A stretch of 64,000 nucleotides of DNA from Chitinophagaceae bacterium (GTDB taxonomy: Bacteria > Bacteroidota > Bacteroidia > Chitinophagales > Chitinophagaceae): assembly GCA_947454235.1 (NCBI GenBank), contig CANGIY010000002.1, forward strand, positions 62,001 to 126,000. Direction: 5' to 3'. Of this stretch, positions 37,087-44,950 are shown piece by piece. The position numbers were made by a program, and so were the translations under genes. The notes below the pieces were generated by a model. The model saw nothing but the letters and a program-made list of their open reading frames with translations. It was not told the origin of the DNA and ran no database searches. Each line of letters begins with the position of its first letter. Within the stretch, counting starts at the first letter, position 1.

Positions 37087-37608
37087 ATGAGCGCTATGAA
37101 ATCAAGTACCAATAAAAAAACCGCCGGCAAAACAAGCGCTGACGAAAGCGCATCATCGGCTTCAAAGAAAACGTCTCCAAAAACCAAAAAGGCGGCAATG
37201 GAAGATGATGAGGATTTAGATGATGAACTGGATGAAGCTCCAAAGAAAGCGTCGAAAACAACCAAAGCATCGGCTAAAAAGAAAAAAGACGATGACGATG
37301 ATGATGACGACGACGATACTCCTAAAAAGAAGTCTGCTTCAAAAGCTTCGTCAAAGAAAAGTTCTGACGACGACGATGATGATGACGACGATTTGGACGA
37401 AGAAGATGACGATTTTGGAAAAGATGACTTTGAGGATGAAATTGATATAGACAAAGAATTCGAAGAGTTCGAACTTCCGAAATCAAAAAGCAAAACTCCG
37501 GGTAAAAAGAAAAGTTCATCAAAAGACGATGACTTTGATGATGAGTTCAAAGATTTGGGCTTTTTCAGTGAGTCGGGTGGGTTTGACGATGACGATGATG
37601 ACTATTAA
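37087..37608 (+). CDS. Low-complexity block-polyampholyte protein (Lys/Ser/Ala blocks alternating with Asp/Glu blocks)
   Basis: Continuous ORF between purA and pabB; KKKKDDDDDDDDDDTPKKKSASKASSKKSSDDDDDDDDDLDEEDDD.. Confidence 0.7.
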   Translation: MSAMKSSTNKKTAGKTSADESASSASKKTSPKTKKAAMEDDEDLDDELDEAPKKASKTTKASAKKKKDDDDDDDDDDTPKKKSASKASSKKSSDDDDDDDDDLDEEDDDFGKDDFEDEIDIDKEFEEFELPKSKSKTPGKKKSSSKDDDFDDEFKDLGFFSESGGFDDDDDDY

Positions 37609-37616
37609 TAATCTAA

Positions 37617-38900
37617 GTGCGTCAATTCTATAAAACGACATATAACATAGCAAGTCAGTCTGCTGATTTGCTTAAGGATAGGATGCTGAACTGGGCCAAC
37701 CGGTTCAGCATTCATCTTTTACTAGATAGCAATAGCTACAAACACACTATTGGTACCTTCGAATTTCTGCTGGGTGTGGGAACGGATGCTTCTCCAACAG
37801 TAACTAGCCATATTGCTCTTCAGAATCAACATGAGCGGCAATGGTGGCTGGGACATGTGAACTACGACTACAAAAACACGCTTTTTAAAGGTCTGCAAAC
37901 AAATAAAAAAGAGGTCAAGGCATTTTGTGACTTCTTCTTTTTTGCGCCTGATACCATCCTATACATCGAAAGAGATTCAACTGAATTAGTAATAGAGTCT
38001 ATTCATGAACCCGATTTGATTTGGAATGAAATACTGGAATGTGCACCTCAATTTGATGCGAAATTGCCAAAAGTAGATTTCAAGAAAGCCCTTGGGAAAA
38101 ATGAATATTGCGAAATTGTTGATCGTCTTAGGCAACACATTAAAGATGGAGATTGTTACGAGATTAACTTATGCAATTATGCCTATGCTAAAGATGTAGC
38201 AATAAACCCTGTTGCTGTTTTCAAGCAATTAAACAGTGCCTCACCTGCGCCATTTTCGGCTTTTTACAAAGTGGGGAGTAGCACAATGATGTGTTCTAGC
38301 CCTGAAAGGTATTTAACCAGAGTAGGCGAGCGCGTATACTCTCAACCTATTAAGGGTACAGCACGTAGAAGCCATATTGCAGCAGTCGACGAGCAAATTA
38401 AGGTAGACCTGCGCCAAAGTATCAAGGAGCGGGCAGAAAATGTAATGATTGTCGATCTTGTGCGCAATGACCTGGCACAATCGTGCAAAACGGGGTCAAT
38501 TCAAGTTGATGAGCTATTTGGTGTGTACACTTTTCCGCATGTACACCAACTCATTTCAACCGTTTCAGGGGTACTTAAAAATAGTAATGGATTTTCATTT
38601 TCGCCCATTGAAAAGTCATTTCCTATGGGTAGCATGACAGGTGCGCCTAAATACAAAGTGATGCAGCTTATTGAGCAATATGAAGCTGTGGCACGTGGTT
38701 TATTTTCAGGGTCTGTTGGTTATATAACACCTGATGGTGATTTTGATTTGAATGTAGTCATCAGGTCTCTTTTCTATAATGCCGGCACCCAACATCTCTG
38801 TTACCAGACAGGCGGAGCCATAACCTGGGACAGTGTCCCTGAACAAGAATGGGGAGAGATGCTGTTGAAAGGCGAAGCATTAGAACGTTTGTTTCGATAA
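37617..38900 (+). CDS. pabB: Aminodeoxychorismate synthase component I / anthranilate-synthase-I family
   Basis: DCYEINLCNYAYA; SSPERYL; QPIKGTARR; ENVMIVDLVRNDLAQSC; GSMTGAPKYKVMQLIEQYE; GTG start. Confidence 0.85.
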   Translation: MRQFYKTTYNIASQSADLLKDRMLNWANRFSIHLLLDSNSYKHTIGTFEFLLGVGTDASPTVTSHIALQNQHERQWWLGHVNYDYKNTLFKGLQTNKKEVKAFCDFFFFAPDTILYIERDSTELVIESIHEPDLIWNEILECAPQFDAKLPKVDFKKALGKNEYCEIVDRLRQHIKDGDCYEINLCNYAYAKDVAINPVAVFKQLNSASPAPFSAFYKVGSSTMMCSSPERYLTRVGERVYSQPIKGTARRSHIAAVDEQIKVDLRQSIKERAENVMIVDLVRNDLAQSCKTGSIQVDELFGVYTFPHVHQLISTVSGVLKNSNGFSFSPIEKSFPMGSMTGAPKYKVMQLIEQYEAVARGLFSGSVGYITPDGDFDLNVVIRSLFYNAGTQHLCYQTGGAITWDSVPEQEWGEMLLKGEALERLFR

Positions 38901-38972
38901 AATTTCAAAAAATTAAACAAAATTATCTGGCTTCTATACGTGTTTATAGGGGTTGTCTATTTATTTATTGAA

Positions 38973-39009
38973 AAAGTTGAACAAAATATTTTATTGTTTG
39001 TTCAACTTT
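38973..39009. promoter_or_regulatory. 13-bp perfect inverted repeat, candidate CarH/MerR operator
   Basis: AAAGTTGAACAAA (38973-38985) - 11 nt - TTTGTTCAACTTT (38997-39009). Confidence 0.7.
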
Positions 39010-39021
39010 CCCTTATTTTTG
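38994..39021 (+). promoter_or_regulatory. Putative promoter of the carotenoid operon
   Basis: TTG (38994-38996), 17-nt spacer, TATTTTTG (39014-39021); Bacteroidota -33/-7 layout. Confidence 0.6.
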
Positions 39022-39051
39022 TTTAAATTTGTACGAAATTAATTAAACAAA
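39018..39051. promoter_or_regulatory. Second, 9-bp inverted repeat overlapping -7 and reaching the start codon
   Basis: TTTGTTTAA (39018-39026) - 16 nt - TTAAACAAA (39043-39051). Confidence 0.5.
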
Positions 39052-39052
39052 G

Positions 39053-39964
39053 ATGGGGGCATACCAAATCAACGATTTAGAAAATTTGACAGGTATCAAA
39101 GCGCATACAATTAGAATTTGGGAAAAGCGCTATGGTCTTATTACCCCTGCGCGTACTGCAACGAACAGAAGGTTTTACGATGACGCACAGGTGAGGAAAC
39201 TGCTCAATGTAACAACGCTTCTCGCATACGGACACAAGATTTCAACTATCGCATCATACAGTGAGGAAGAACTTTTTTCGCACATCAATAAAGAGAATCA
39301 GGTTGATAATAATGACAGCTTGCGAACAAGCTATGTGAATGACCTGATTAAAACTATGATCTCATTTGACGAGGCGGGGTTTGAGAAAATATTTTCGGCA
39401 TCAGTGCTTCGATACGGTTTGCATGAAACGATGTTGAAAATCATTTATCCTTTTTTGCGCAAAACAGGTGTTTTGTGGAGTGTAAACAAGGCGGCACCTG
39501 TCGAAGAGCATTTTGCAACTGCAATTATAAAAAAGAAACTAATGGCGGCAATTGATGGGCTGCTTCCGGTTCAAAATAGCGAAAACAGATTTGTGTTGTT
39601 TCTGCCGCACAACGAATGGCATGAGATAGGTTTGTTGGTTGCGCATTATTTGTTGCGTTACAATAACATTCCAACCATCTACCTGGGACAGAATGTTCCT
39701 GACGCCGACATTGAGAAGATTCTCGAAAAACTGAATCCTAGATACATCATGCTGTTTTTCGTTACCAGTAAAACAGCTGATGGAATTGGTAACTATTTGA
39801 AATTTATTTCAGAAAAATGTAAGAATGCATCAATTCTTGTTTCAGGATACATGGACTTGCTGAATGAAGTGAAACAAATTCCACAAAACGTTGAAATTCT
39901 GCCTGATGTAAAACACTTGGAACGAATCATAGCTCAAATAAAAGTGGCGTCAGCCATGTCATAA
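39053..39964 (+). CDS. MerR-family regulator with B12-binding domain (CarH/LitR-type photoreceptor)
   Basis: MerR HTH YQINDLENLTGIKAHTIRIWEKRYGLI; W142-x9-E152-H153 (VLWSVNKAAPVEEHF); E188-W-H190-E-I-G. Confidence 0.88.
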   Translation: MGAYQINDLENLTGIKAHTIRIWEKRYGLITPARTATNRRFYDDAQVRKLLNVTTLLAYGHKISTIASYSEEELFSHINKENQVDNNDSLRTSYVNDLIKTMISFDEAGFEKIFSASVLRYGLHETMLKIIYPFLRKTGVLWSVNKAAPVEEHFATAIIKKKLMAAIDGLLPVQNSENRFVLFLPHNEWHEIGLLVAHYLLRYNNIPTIYLGQNVPDADIEKILEKLNPRYIMLFFVTSKTADGIGNYLKFISEKCKNASILVSGYMDLLNEVKQIPQNVEILPDVKHLERIIAQIKVASAMS

Positions 39965-39974
39965 TTTATATCGT

Positions 39975-41456
39975 ATGCCAGCAAGAAACAAAAATGTAGC
40001 AGTGATTGGTAGTGGGTTCTCCGGACTTGCGGCAGCGTGTTTTTTAGCGCGTGAAGGTTGTAATGTTACCGTCTACGAAAAAAATAGTACTGTAGGCGGT
40101 AGGGCAAGAGCTTACCAGAAAGATGGGTTCTTCTTCGATATGGGTCCAAGCTGGTATTGGATGCCTGATATTTTTGAACGCTTTTTTGCTGAATTCGGGA
40201 AAAAGCCATCTGATTATTACGAATTAGTGAAACTTGATCCAGGTTTCCAAATGATTTTCGGTGATGACGACATTCTGCCTGTTCCGGCTAATTTAGATGC
40301 TTTGTATGCTTTGTTCGAATCAATAGAAAAGGGTAGTGCTGAACAGCTCAAAAGGTTCATGAAAGAAGGCGAGTTCAAATATAAAGTAGGGATGAAAGAC
40401 CTTGTGTACAAACCTGCTTTTTCATGGTTTGAATTCGCAACGAAAGATGTGATTACAGGTGCCTTGAAAATGGATGTTTTTAAAAGCATGAGCGCGTACG
40501 TTCGTCGTTTTTTCAAAGATGCACGTTTAAGGGCATTGATGGAATTTCCTGTACTTTTTCTAGGTGCAATGCCCGATAAAATACCTGCTTTGTATTCGCT
40601 AATGAACTTTGCAGCTCTTGATATGGGGACTTGGTATCCCATAAAAGGAATGGCAGAAATTCCAAACGCTATGTATGCGCTTGCGAAAGAGCTGGGTGTG
40701 CACTTTGAGTTAGATTGTGAAGTAAAGCGTGTGATTATTGAACGAGATAATGTCACTAAAGTAAGTACTTCAAAAGGTGTGTTTTTGGCCAACGGTGTTG
40801 TAGGTGCAGGCGATTATAACCACATTGACCAACACATTGTACCCGAAGAATTTCGCAACTACAATGCAGACTACTGGGAGAAAAAGACATTTGCGCCGAG
40901 TTGCCTGATCTTCTATATAGGTGTCAATAAAAAAGTAAAGCGCCTCATTCACCACAACCTGTTTTTTGATACCGACTTTGATAAACATTCAAAAGAAATC
41001 TATCAAAATCCGCAATGGCCTGAAGATCCGCTCTTTTATGCGTGTGTACCGTCAAAAACCGATTCAAATGTTGCTCCGGAGGGAATGGAAAATATATTTA
41101 TACTCATTCCGGTTGCGCCAGGGCTTGAAGATTCAGAACCTGTACGTGAAAGGTATTATGGTAAAATAATAGAACGCCTGGAAAAGTACACGGGAGATGC
41201 TATTGCAGCACATGTCGTGCATAAAAGAAGTTACTGTATCAACGATTTTAAAGCCGACTACAATGCATTTAAGGGCAATGCCTACGGATTAGCAAATACA
41301 TTGATGCAAACAGCAGTTTTAAAACCATCATTAAAAAACAAAAAGCTTTCAAACTTGTTTTACGCCGGTCAACTAACAGTACCTGGTCCGGGAGTACCAC
41401 CTGCGCTTATTTCGGGGCAGTTGGCAGCAGAACAATTACTAAAGACATTCAACTAG
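39975..41456 (+). CDS. crtI: Phytoene desaturase
   Basis: VAVIGSGFSGLAAACFLAREGCNVTVYEKNSTVGGRA; PGPGVPPALISGQLAAEQLL-type C-terminus. Confidence 0.92.
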   Translation: MPARNKNVAVIGSGFSGLAAACFLAREGCNVTVYEKNSTVGGRARAYQKDGFFFDMGPSWYWMPDIFERFFAEFGKKPSDYYELVKLDPGFQMIFGDDDILPVPANLDALYALFESIEKGSAEQLKRFMKEGEFKYKVGMKDLVYKPAFSWFEFATKDVITGALKMDVFKSMSAYVRRFFKDARLRALMEFPVLFLGAMPDKIPALYSLMNFAALDMGTWYPIKGMAEIPNAMYALAKELGVHFELDCEVKRVIIERDNVTKVSTSKGVFLANGVVGAGDYNHIDQHIVPEEFRNYNADYWEKKTFAPSCLIFYIGVNKKVKRLIHHNLFFDTDFDKHSKEIYQNPQWPEDPLFYACVPSKTDSNVAPEGMENIFILIPVAPGLEDSEPVRERYYGKIIERLEKYTGDAIAAHVVHKRSYCINDFKADYNAFKGNAYGLANTLMQTAVLKPSLKNKKLSNLFYAGQLTVPGPGVPPALISGQLAAEQLLKTFN

Positions 41457-41463
41457 AAATACC

Positions 41464-42300
41464 ATGAAAGAACTATTTGACCAAGTATCAGCAAAATGTA
41501 GCAAGACTACAACCAACTCGTACAGCACGAGTTTCTCTTTGGGCATCAAGTTCCTTGATGCGCATCTTCATGGCCCAATCTATGGCATTTATGGTTTCGT
41601 TCGCTTTGCCGATGAAATCGTTGATAGTTTCCATAACTACGATAAATCGTCATTGTTAGATGAGTTTAAAAAGGAAACCTGGATTGCTATTGAACGTAAA
41701 ATCAGTCTTAATCCAATACTCAATAGTTTCCAGCACGTTGTCAATAATTACAACATAGAAAGGGAATTGATAGAGTGCTTTTTCAAAAGCATGGAAACAG
41801 ATTTAAGTGAAATTGAACACTCTCGCGAGTCATATAATGAGTATATACTCGGCTCGGCAGAAGTTGTAGGGCTGATGTGTCTAAGGGTATTCACCAACAA
41901 TGATGCGCAGCTATACCAAGATTTAAAGCCATTCGCAATGAAGCTGGGTGCTGCGTTCCAAAAGGTGAATTTCCTGCGCGACCTTCAGGCAGACTACAAT
42001 ACTCTTGGCAGAACTTATTTCCCCGGTCTTGACTTTAGCCAATTCACAGCAAAAGAAAAAGAACACATTCAAAAAGAGATTGAACAAGATTTTGATGATG
42101 CCCTGGTAGGAATCAGAAAATTGCCAGCCTCTTCAAGACGGGGAGTGTACCTCGCTTATTTTTATTACCGCAAGTTATTCCTGCTCATAAAGAAAACACC
42201 AGCGGAAAGAGTAATGAATACAAGAATTAGAATTTCAAACCACCGTAAAATCGGATTGATGTTTCAATCAATGGTTAGACACGGCTTAAATCTTTTATAA
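41464..42300 (+). CDS. crtB: Phytoene synthase
   Basis: TNSYSTSFSLGIKFL; FVRFADEIVDSFH; QKVNFLRDLQADYNTLGRTYFP. Confidence 0.92.
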   Translation: MKELFDQVSAKCSKTTTNSYSTSFSLGIKFLDAHLHGPIYGIYGFVRFADEIVDSFHNYDKSSLLDEFKKETWIAIERKISLNPILNSFQHVVNNYNIERELIECFFKSMETDLSEIEHSRESYNEYILGSAEVVGLMCLRVFTNNDAQLYQDLKPFAMKLGAAFQKVNFLRDLQADYNTLGRTYFPGLDFSQFTAKEKEHIQKEIEQDFDDALVGIRKLPASSRRGVYLAYFYYRKLFLLIKKTPAERVMNTRIRISNHRKIGLMFQSMVRHGLNLL

Positions 42301-42794
42301 TGGTAAGAACTGGCTTAATCAATATCGCATTGTTAATGTCAATCAATGCACCGGCTTACAACATTAATGCTGTAAGAAAACTATACTATGATGCTGCTAA
42401 AAACAGCAATAACAAGGAGTCGTTTTATGAAGCAGTAACTACAATGCCTGAAAACGACGCGCTTATTTCGGGATACAAAGGCATAGCCACAGTTCTGATG
42501 GCTGAATGCGTTTATAATCCATACAGTAAGCTTAGTTACTTTACAAAAGGCAAAAGGCAACTGGAGGCCGCCATAGCAAAAGATCCGTCCAGTGTTGAAC
42601 TGGTTTTTTTGAGGTATTGTATCCAAACCAATGCTCCGTTCTTTTTGCAATACAATGGCAATATTGAAACTGATAAAAAAATGTTGCTTTCAAGATGGTC
42701 TTCATTAACAGATGCTGATTTAAAAAAAAGAATTGCAGACTACATGAAAGACTCAAAATTTTGTAATTCAGCAGAGAAAAAAGTGTTTTCATGA
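42300..42794 (+). CDS. Unknown alpha-helical protein inside the carotenoid operon
   Basis: TAATG overlap with crtB stop and ATGA overlap with idi start; hydrophobic N-terminus. Confidence 0.7.
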   Translation: MVRTGLINIALLMSINAPAYNINAVRKLYYDAAKNSNNKESFYEAVTTMPENDALISGYKGIATVLMAECVYNPYSKLSYFTKGKRQLEAAIAKDPSSVELVFLRYCIQTNAPFFLQYNGNIETDKKMLLSRWSSLTDADLKKRIADYMKDSKFCNSAEKKVFS

Positions 42795-43303
42795 TTGAAA
42801 TGATGATTCTGGTTGACCAGAACGATAATGAAATAGGTACTTTACCCAAGCTTGAAACCCACGAAAAGGGTTTACTGCATAGGGCTTTTTCAATATTTAT
42901 TTTCAATAACCAGGGGCAAATGTTGTTGCAGCAGCGGGCAGCAGCTAAATACCACTCCCCACTTTTATGGACAAATGCCTGTTGTAGTCACCCGCGGTTG
43001 GGAGAAACTGTGCTTCAAGCAGCCCAAAGAAGGTTGCAGGAAGAAATGGGTTTCGTCACCGGACTTACGCCGAAGTTTTCATTCATATACAAGGCTGAAT
43101 TTGATAACGGACTTACAGAGCATGAATTAGACCATGTATTGGTTGGGACTTTTGATGGTACTCCAGTTATTAATAAAGAAGAGGTAGAGGATTATAAATG
43201 GATGTCAATGAATGAATTAAACAAAGACATGATGGTTAACCCCCACCTTTATACGGTTTGGTTTACGATATGCATGAACGAATACCTTAATCATTTAAAG
43301 TAA
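42791..43303 (+). CDS. idi: Isopentenyl-diphosphate delta-isomerase (type I, Nudix)
   Basis: LLQQRAAAKYHSPLLWTNACCSHPRLGETVLQAAQRRLQEEMGF. Confidence 0.92.
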   Translation: MIEMMILVDQNDNEIGTLPKLETHEKGLLHRAFSIFIFNNQGQMLLQQRAAAKYHSPLLWTNACCSHPRLGETVLQAAQRRLQEEMGFVTGLTPKFSFIYKAEFDNGLTEHELDHVLVGTFDGTPVINKEEVEDYKWMSMNELNKDMMVNPHLYTVWFTICMNEYLNHLK

Positions 43304-43313
43304 AAGAAAGTGT

Positions 43314-43772
43314 ATGAAAGTGTATGAATTAAAAAGGGAGCAAGTGTTGCCTTTGTCTCAGGATGAAGCATGGAAGTTTTTCTCTACACCACTTAATCTT
43401 GCAACTATTACCCCTCCAGAACTCGATTTTAAAGTGCTTTCCAAGCTTGATGGGAAACCTATTTATTCAGGAATGATTATCAGCTATATAGTTCGTCCAT
43501 TATTTAAAATTCCCCTGCGTTGGAAGACTGAAATTAAGGACGTGCTTGCCCCAAATAAATTTGTAGACACTCAATTGAGAGGTCCTTATAGACTGTGGGA
43601 ACACACTCATATCTTTAAGCCAGTTGAAGGGGGAGTGCACATGACTGATATTGTGAAATACGCGTTACCGTTGGGTCCGTTGGGTACTATAGCGCATAGT
43701 TTAGTTGTGAAACAACAACTCAAACGCATTTTCGATTTTAGAGAACAAAAACTGAGAGAACTTTTCAATTAA
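43314..43772 (+). CDS. SRPBCC (START/Bet v1-like) family protein
   Basis: LPLSQDEAWKFFSTPLNLATITPPELDFKVL; LRGPYRLWEHTHIFKPVEGGVHMTDIVKYALPLGPLG. Confidence 0.78.
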   Translation: MKVYELKREQVLPLSQDEAWKFFSTPLNLATITPPELDFKVLSKLDGKPIYSGMIISYIVRPLFKIPLRWKTEIKDVLAPNKFVDTQLRGPYRLWEHTHIFKPVEGGVHMTDIVKYALPLGPLGTIAHSLVVKQQLKRIFDFREQKLRELFN

Positions 43773-43776
43773 TAGT

Positions 43777-44247
43777 ATGTTAGACGCCATTATTTTAACT
43801 GGTACTTTTTTTGGTATGGAAGCGGTAGCTTGGTTAGCCCATAAATACATTATGCACGGCTTTTTGTGGGTATTGCATGAAGATCATCACAAGAAAAATC
43901 CAACTTCATTTTTTGAAAAGAACGATTACTTCTTTCTCATTTTTGCCATTCCCGGAATCCTGTGCTTAGCGCTGGGATTATACACTTCGTTAACCCACCT
44001 CTTTTATATTGGACTAGGAATTACGATTTACGGCTTTGCTTATTTCATGGTGCATGACATTTTCATTCACCAACGATTTAAGTGGTTGCGAAATAGCGAC
44101 AATGTCTATTTCAGGGCTATCAGGCGAGCGCATAAAATGCACCACAAACACCTTGGTAAGGAAGAAGGTGAGTGCTTTGGTATGTTGATGGTGCCCATTA
44201 AGTACTTTCTTGCAGAAATAAAAAGCAAGCAACAGGTCAATGTCTGA
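43777..44247 (+). CDS. crtZ: Beta-carotene hydroxylase
   Basis: His motifs HKYIMHG, HEDHHKK, HDIFIHQR, RAHKMHHKH. Confidence 0.88.
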   Translation: MLDAIILTGTFFGMEAVAWLAHKYIMHGFLWVLHEDHHKKNPTSFFEKNDYFFLIFAIPGILCLALGLYTSLTHLFYIGLGITIYGFAYFMVHDIFIHQRFKWLRNSDNVYFRAIRRAHKMHHKHLGKEEGECFGMLMVPIKYFLAEIKSKQQVNV

Positions 44248-44950
44248 GCACTATACATACATTTGGGTTGATGTATTGTGCGTGGTATTTCCGTTCATAT
44301 TTTCGTTTCATCCCAAAATCGGGTTTTCGAAGCAATGGAAGTACTTTTTAACACCATGGCTCGTGACCGCACTATTCTTTGTGGTTTGGGATATATTTTT
44401 CACTTCAATCAATGTTTGGTGGTTTGACAGTAGGTACGTTATTGGAATGTGGTGGCAGGGTATGCCTGTAGAAGAGTACCTGTTCTTCCTTTGTATTCCT
44501 TATTCTTGTGTCTTTACCTATCATGTGCTCACAAGCCTTTTAAAGGTTGATTTCACAAAATGGGAGCAGAAGGCAAAAGCTTTTACAATTTATGTTTTAA
44601 TCCCGGTATTGGTTATTGTAGGCACTATTTACCACAATCGATATTACACGTTTTCAACGGCTATTTTGTTAGCTATTGCGCTAATCATAGCTGTCTTAGT
44701 TAGGTTTAAGTATTTTGCGCAATTCTATTTTTCTTACTCAATACTCTTAATACCTTTCACAATATCAAACGGAGTGCTGACAGGTAGTTTTTTAGGCAGG
44801 GTAGTAGTACATTACAACAATACACACAACCTTGGAATCAGAATGTTGACAATACCGGTTGAAGATATTTTTTACGGAATGTTACTCATATTTATGACTG
44901 TATTGCAGATGGAGTACCGTAAATCACTTGTTGTAAAATCGGGTAGGTAA
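44240..44950 (+). CDS. Lycopene cyclase (fused CrtYc/CrtYd-type heterocyclase domains)
   Basis: MWWQGMPVEEYLFFLCIPYSCVFTYH; IPVEDIFYGMLLIFMT; multi-TM. Confidence 0.85.
   Translation: MSEHYTYIWVDVLCVVFPFIFSFHPKIGFSKQWKYFLTPWLVTALFFVVWDIFFTSINVWWFDSRYVIGMWWQGMPVEEYLFFLCIPYSCVFTYHVLTSLLKVDFTKWEQKAKAFTIYVLIPVLVIVGTIYHNRYYTFSTAILLAIALIIAVLVRFKYFAQFYFSYSILLIPFTISNGVLTGSFLGRVVVHYNNTHNLGIRMLTIPVEDIFYGMLLIFMTVLQMEYRKSLVVKSGR

Follow-up and report, generated by a model that had tools for sequence, protein, structure and literature searches.

A CarH-like vitamin B12 light-sensing repressor very probably sits on a 34-base palindrome at the head of the carH-crt operon, blocking the promoter of these genes in the window, i.e., the 64,000-nucleotide stretch of the Chitinophagaceae bacterium contig analyzed here. 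The CarH-family repressor whose gene follows directly is likely to use this palindrome as its operator, with the dark AdoCbl-CarH form repressing its own operon. The sites themselves, their conservation, the spacing rule, the gene context, the co-occurrence with carH, and the overlap with a conserved -7 box are all read directly from the sequences; the respective features are listed in Table 1.

Table 1. Regulatory elements and genes of the carH-crt region, in window coordinates
Feature	Position	Strand	Sequence or description	Basis or remark
Core operator	39018..39051	.	34-base inverted repeat TTTGTTTAA-N16-TTAAACAAA	Conservation before carH, N16/N17 preference, carH co-occurrence
Core half-sites	39018-39026, 39043-39051		TTTGTTTAA and TTAAACAAA	Second repeat of the initial annotation
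Everted repeat	38973..39009	.	13-bp perfect repeat: AAAGTTGAACAAA (38973-38985), N11, TTTGTTCAACTTT (38997-39009)	
Half-site cores within the everted repeat	38977-38985, 38997-39005		Auxiliary sites	Scores of 19.1 and 9.5
Upstream half-site	38913..38921	+	TTAAACAAA	Highest-scoring half-site of the window (21.3)
Probable -7 element	39024..39031	+	TAAATTTG	Inside the operator; TAnnTTTG conservation
-7 box of the initial annotation	39014..39021	+	TATTTTTG	Matches the consensus; position not conserved
Predicted transcription start	39036..39037	+		4 to 5 nt past the -7 box (rule of PMC6847099)
Possible -33 element	38997..39000	+	TTTG	Sequence only; 23 nt ahead of the -7 box, inside a half-site
carH-like regulator gene	39053..39964	+	MerR DNA-binding domain, then B12-binding domains	Pfam and PDB matches
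crtI-type phytoene desaturase gene	39975..41456	+		NCBIfam CrtID above cut-off
crtB-type phytoene synthase gene	41464..42300	+		Pfam SQS_PSY
Rest of the operon	42300..44950	+	Small protein (42300), idi (42791), SRPBCC-like ORF (43314), crtZ-like ORF (43777), lycopene cyclase (44240)	

The regulator gene is the first of eight closely packed genes on one strand, with a gap of 10 nt between carH and crtI. In Pfam, its product matches MerR_1 (7.6e-15), B12-binding_2 (1.7e-6), and B12-binding (1.1e-5, the last of these below its own cut-off), and its best relatives in PDB are the Thermus CarH chains 3whp and 5c8d (E of ~1e-21). Against the NCBIfam CarH equivalog NF052513, it scores 99.8 bits at a cut-off of 400 and is therefore named CarH-like here and placed outside that family. 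The AdoCbl residues W131, E141, H142, and H177 (the Wx9EH and ExH motifs) are kept in the window regulator and in 70 of the 70 aligned proteins. Among the downstream genes, the roles of the ORFs at 43314 and 43777 are assigned by resemblance only, with no Pfam match. The small ORF at 42300-42794 has no Pfam or NCBIfam match, and ORFs of similar size occupy the same place in relatives (loci L070, L079, L086, and L088). Elsewhere in the window, positions 37087-37608 encode a 173-aa low-complexity protein with Asp, Lys, and Ser runs, located between a purA-like gene and pabB.

Conservation of the core repeat was assessed in a set of ∼780 genomes, with loci gathered by CarH protein similarity alone. 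The repeat occupies the corresponding position ahead of carH in congeners as well as in other genera, with a strong preference for the N16 or N17 spacing. Its left arm (TTTGTTTAA, TTAGTTTAA, or TCTGTTTAA) lies at -31 to -43 before carH in all 10 congeners, and a facing TTAAACAAA-like arm is found just ahead of the ATG or TTG start in 7 of them. Each arm contains TnnACA (as TTAAACA or TTGAACA in every arm), and in 124 half-sites of other genomes the T, A, C, and A of this motif are conserved at 91 to 97%. Among convergent TGTnnA/TnnACA pairs in 41 carH flanks, start-to-start spacings of 24 (31 pairs) and 25 (19 pairs) predominate, and no other spacing occurs more than 8 times; a search of the same flanks for tandem 11-bp direct repeats of TnnACA yielded a single same-strand pair versus 50 convergent ones at 24 or 25. 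Exact copies of the repeat are present in 42 of 94 carH-containing genomes of the family versus 2 of 56 genomes without carH (Fisher test, 1e-8), and in 46 of 71 versus 2 of 28 genomes of the class (9e-8), P values that overstate the evidence, as related genomes are counted as independent. The occurrence of the repeat in many genera and several families holds irrespective of these values. In the class sample, a copy lies 20 to 207 bp from carH in 18 genomes; approximately half of the carH-containing genomes have no exact copy, and degenerate copies are common. The initial annotation had taken its sites for binding sites of the CarH-family regulator encoded directly downstream, and the conservation, the co-occurrence with carH, and the common TnnACA half-site all point the same way.

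In Bacteroidota, promoters carry TAHHTTTG at -12 to -5, the start follows 4 to 5 nt later, and the -33 element is weak or poorly defined (PMC6847099). Of 38 carH promoters, 19, that of the window included, have a TAnnTTTG motif within the repeat on the gene strand, and none has it on the opposite strand. Its commonest location is repeat base 7 (9 of 25), which in the window corresponds to TAAATTTG. The promoter string originally proposed (TTG at 38994-38996, N17, and TATTTTTG) puts the TA four bases ahead of the arm, an arrangement seen in 2 of 25 cases, the window being one of these; this assignment gives way to TAAATTTG, within the repeat spacer, as the probable conserved -7 box. The predicted start leaves a leader of ∼16 to 17 nt and places the repeat at about -18 to +16, so the proposed overlap of the sites with the promoter of carH and the crt operon stands for the predicted promoter. 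Of 39 promoters of the sigma genes discussed below, 18 have a TTG 20 to 22 nt ahead of the -7 position, between the two repeats.

Upstream of the core lies a set of further half-sites. A half-site weight matrix, trained on the 124 half-sites from other genomes only and applied to both strands of the whole window, has its four best matches at 38913 (21.3), 38977 (19.1), 39018 (18.5), and 39043 (14.7), with the next best anywhere at 13.6; the fifth site, at 38997, scores only 9.5. All the strings of the initial annotation were recovered on re-reading the window sequence, and its half-site spacings of 20, 21, and 25 nt are correct. The 13-bp perfect repeat is likewise real and above chance. With loops of up to 30 allowed, the 64 kb contain just two inverted repeats that pair perfectly over 13 bp or more, and Markov shuffling of the window leads one to expect none; shuffling the intergenic region, at 22% G+C, gives a P of ∼0.006. 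The half-sites at 38913, 38977, and 39043 share one orientation, at successive distances of 64 and 66 bp, and their N16 partners lie at 38888 (2 mismatches), 38952 (3), and 39018 (0); the first of these partners, TTTGTTTCG at 38888-38896, falls within the terminal part of pabB. The genome has other exact copies of TTTGTTCAACTTT (loci L003 and L004), which were considered as sites and rejected, being remote from light genes and looking like chance occurrences.

A role of the 13-bp everted repeat as a hairpin that terminates or impedes pabB transcription, with no connection to CarH, is unlikely; this reading concerns that element only and is compatible with the proposed CarH operator at 39018 to 39051. 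The repeat lies 73 nt past the pabB stop and would form a stable RNA hairpin (-13.1 kcal/mol, z of -4.0), but it has no G+C-rich stem with a T run, the terminator scan finds no terminator there, and the left arm, taken with its flanks, comes close to the best sites in its half-site matrix score. The terminator reading was set aside.

The initial annotation had combined the everted and the second repeats into one four-site operator with two-turn spacing, on which a CarH tetramer would form the main repression complex. This is distinctly unlikely. All four sites do exist, those at 38977 and 38913 score like true half-sites, and one relative (L085) has a weak half-site at the offset of 38977 (score of 10.0), the sole such case. 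Nevertheless, neither the everted pair with its 11-nt gap nor the 21-nt direct spacing occurs in any of the ten congeners, all of which have at least the core left arm, and the arm at 38997 scores poorly. The four-site layout is thus no conserved design, the convergent 25-nt pair alone being conserved, and the suggestion of a lineage-specific architecture holds for the extra upstream sites and fails for the core repeat, which is class-wide in Bacteroidia. Judging from the comparison with congeners, the auxiliary sites of the everted repeat are apparently private to the window genome. The half-sites at 38913 and 38977 should not be ignored, because of their high scores, and may serve as extra cooperative sites in this genome; together with 38997, they probably add affinity or cooperative contacts, in the window genome only. 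A CarH tetramer on these sites is plausible.

The possibility that the regulator is a MerR-type activator, or a B12 sensor without light control, is also quite doubtful. MerR relatives are often activators, and classical MerR activator operators consist of an inverted repeat between the two promoter elements. The window shares with them the inverted repeat and the MerR-type DNA-binding domain, but here the repeat lies over the -7 box and the predicted start site, outside the spacer between the promoter elements. Against a loss of light control, the target genes are classic light-stress genes. Of the light-sensing signature GxxW, EH, GxxH, and GxxxP (PMC11796333), the regulator has GVLW, EH, and GQNVP; the GxxH element reads NEWH, and GExH is found in many relatives. 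A point in favor of a sensor without light control is His132 of Thermus CarH, the residue of the light-state bis-His ligation, whose replacement in H132A permits photolysis and leaves the protein mostly tetrameric (PMC10442372). This position is occupied by Ser in the window regulator and by His in only 2 of 70 aligned proteins, the other 68 being devoid of it. Judging from the alignment, Bacteroidia CarH proteins that lack His132 appear unable to reach the known light end state by the same route, which is where an unmodified transfer of the Thermus model is weakest. His132 is not known to be indispensable across CarH proteins, and those without it would either switch in another way or have another residue take over the role.

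In relatives, the repeat precedes carH, a light-type ECF sigma gene, or crtI (directly before crtI itself in another family of the class), as well as folE/queD and photolyase genes, including a photolyase with an SRPBCC-like gene, and fasciclin-like (assigned by eye) and other genes. Where an ECF sigma gene lies between carH and crtI, it commonly has two copies of the repeat 55 to 57 bp apart, as in most relatives (L071, L072, L108, and others). With this constant pair of operators, the gene looks as if it encoded a light sigma factor of the LitS type. The frequency of the repeat before the sigma gene in many genera could suggest that another regulator, e.g., a factor linked to this gene, binds the repeat instead of CarH. 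This is very unlikely: the repeat follows the presence of carH, its half-site equals the known CarH half-site, and in the clade of the window the genomes with the repeat before carH lack the light-type sigma gene (best matches of at most 28 to 29%), so the repeat does not depend on that sigma factor. It is most improbable that the conserved bases amount to no more than promoter and translation-start signals (TAnnTTTG and a Kozak-like, A-rich leader), since, for all the fit of the -7 box and of the A-rich right arm beside the ATG to Bacteroidota signals (PMC6847099), such a reading leaves unexplained the symmetric left arm, the fixed N16/N17 spacing, the copies far from start codons, and the double copies.

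In most congeners, crtI has a further copy of the repeat immediately ahead of it. This copy is missing from the window genome, as fits its short carH-crtI gap. Another perfect copy of the operator is present in the window genome (L065, 4722-4755; G000:C6:93221-93254), 3 nt upstream of the start codon of a gene for a TonB-dependent receptor, possibly a light- or B12-controlled transporter. A one-mismatch copy (L143, 1501-1534; G000:C6:28511) is found ∼30 nt before queD (PTPS) and folE (GTP cyclohydrolase I). Because the same queD-folE pairing behind the repeat recurs in two further loci (L081 and L083), pterin synthesis looks like a part of the regulon. Genes for secreted fasciclin-like proteins repeatedly stand behind the operator in different families (L053, L082, L122, L125, L136, and L140). 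Copies with two mismatches number 24 in the window genome versus 10 in the reversed control and are thus partly due to chance.

The CarH operators of Thermus thermophilus and Bacillus megaterium consist of three or four tandem 11-bp direct repeats with a TnnACA half-site (PMC8156234, PMC9304148). The Bacteroidia system resembles them in its regulator with MerR and B12 domains, the TnnACA half-site, the overlap of operator and promoter, and the carotenoid gene targets; unlike in the tandem direct repeats, here two half-sites face each other 24 or 25 bp apart. The CarA/CarH operator of Myxococcus xanthus spans a region of ∼55 bp with two inverted repeats upstream of and over the -35 box (PMC9304148), comparable with the double repeat of the sigma genes in Bacteroidia. 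Those inverted repeats were once proposed as the CarA operator, and later work concluded that direct repeats are recognized (PMC9304148), a precedent that, by analogy, would count against reading an inverted repeat as the operator; unlike in Myxococcus, 11-bp direct repeats are absent here. Many Bacteroidia relatives, with a repressor gene beside ECF sigma and crt genes, resemble the LitR/LitS system, in which a light ECF sigma factor is under LitR control, but in the clade of the window carH directly precedes crtI, with no such sigma gene. In the open-access literature, no CarH/LitR operator was found for Bacteroidota, one described elsewhere being possible, and the inverted layout of CarH half-sites is not reported in the open-access CarH operator papers examined; a text search with the letters of the repeat gave no relevant paper among the matches listed. 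The operator appears to share the half-site and the mode of action of CarH and to depart from the tandem direct repeats, the inverted layout being what seems new.

From these observations, we infer protein binding, its dependence on AdoCbl and light, the oligomeric state, and repression. Two TnnACA-type half-sites, facing each other with 25 bp between centers, would enclose the -7 box and the transcription start along with the bases immediately ahead of the start codon. In the dark, AdoCbl-CarH on the core repeat would deny RNA polymerase access to the -7 box and start site; light would break the Co-C bond, CarH would be released, and the operon would be expressed, an instance of negative autoregulation. 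Possibly, and here the proposal is a tentative one, CarH in Bacteroidia has kept the half-site and has a 24/25-bp inverted repeat in place of the tandem 11-bp direct repeats, with two DNA-binding domains, related by the two-fold axis of the oligomer, holding one operator, and with a light switch that works without the bis-His end state in proteins mostly lacking His132.

In Chryseobacterium lacus, a light-induced carotenoid operon has been described without a known regulator (PMC7064467). The rule TTTGTTnAA-N16/17-TTnAACAAA can be searched for in genomes and would outline the probable light and B12 regulon of the whole class Bacteroidia. The same findings raise the questions of how one photoreceptor family may read both direct and inverted half-sites and how it may switch without His132.
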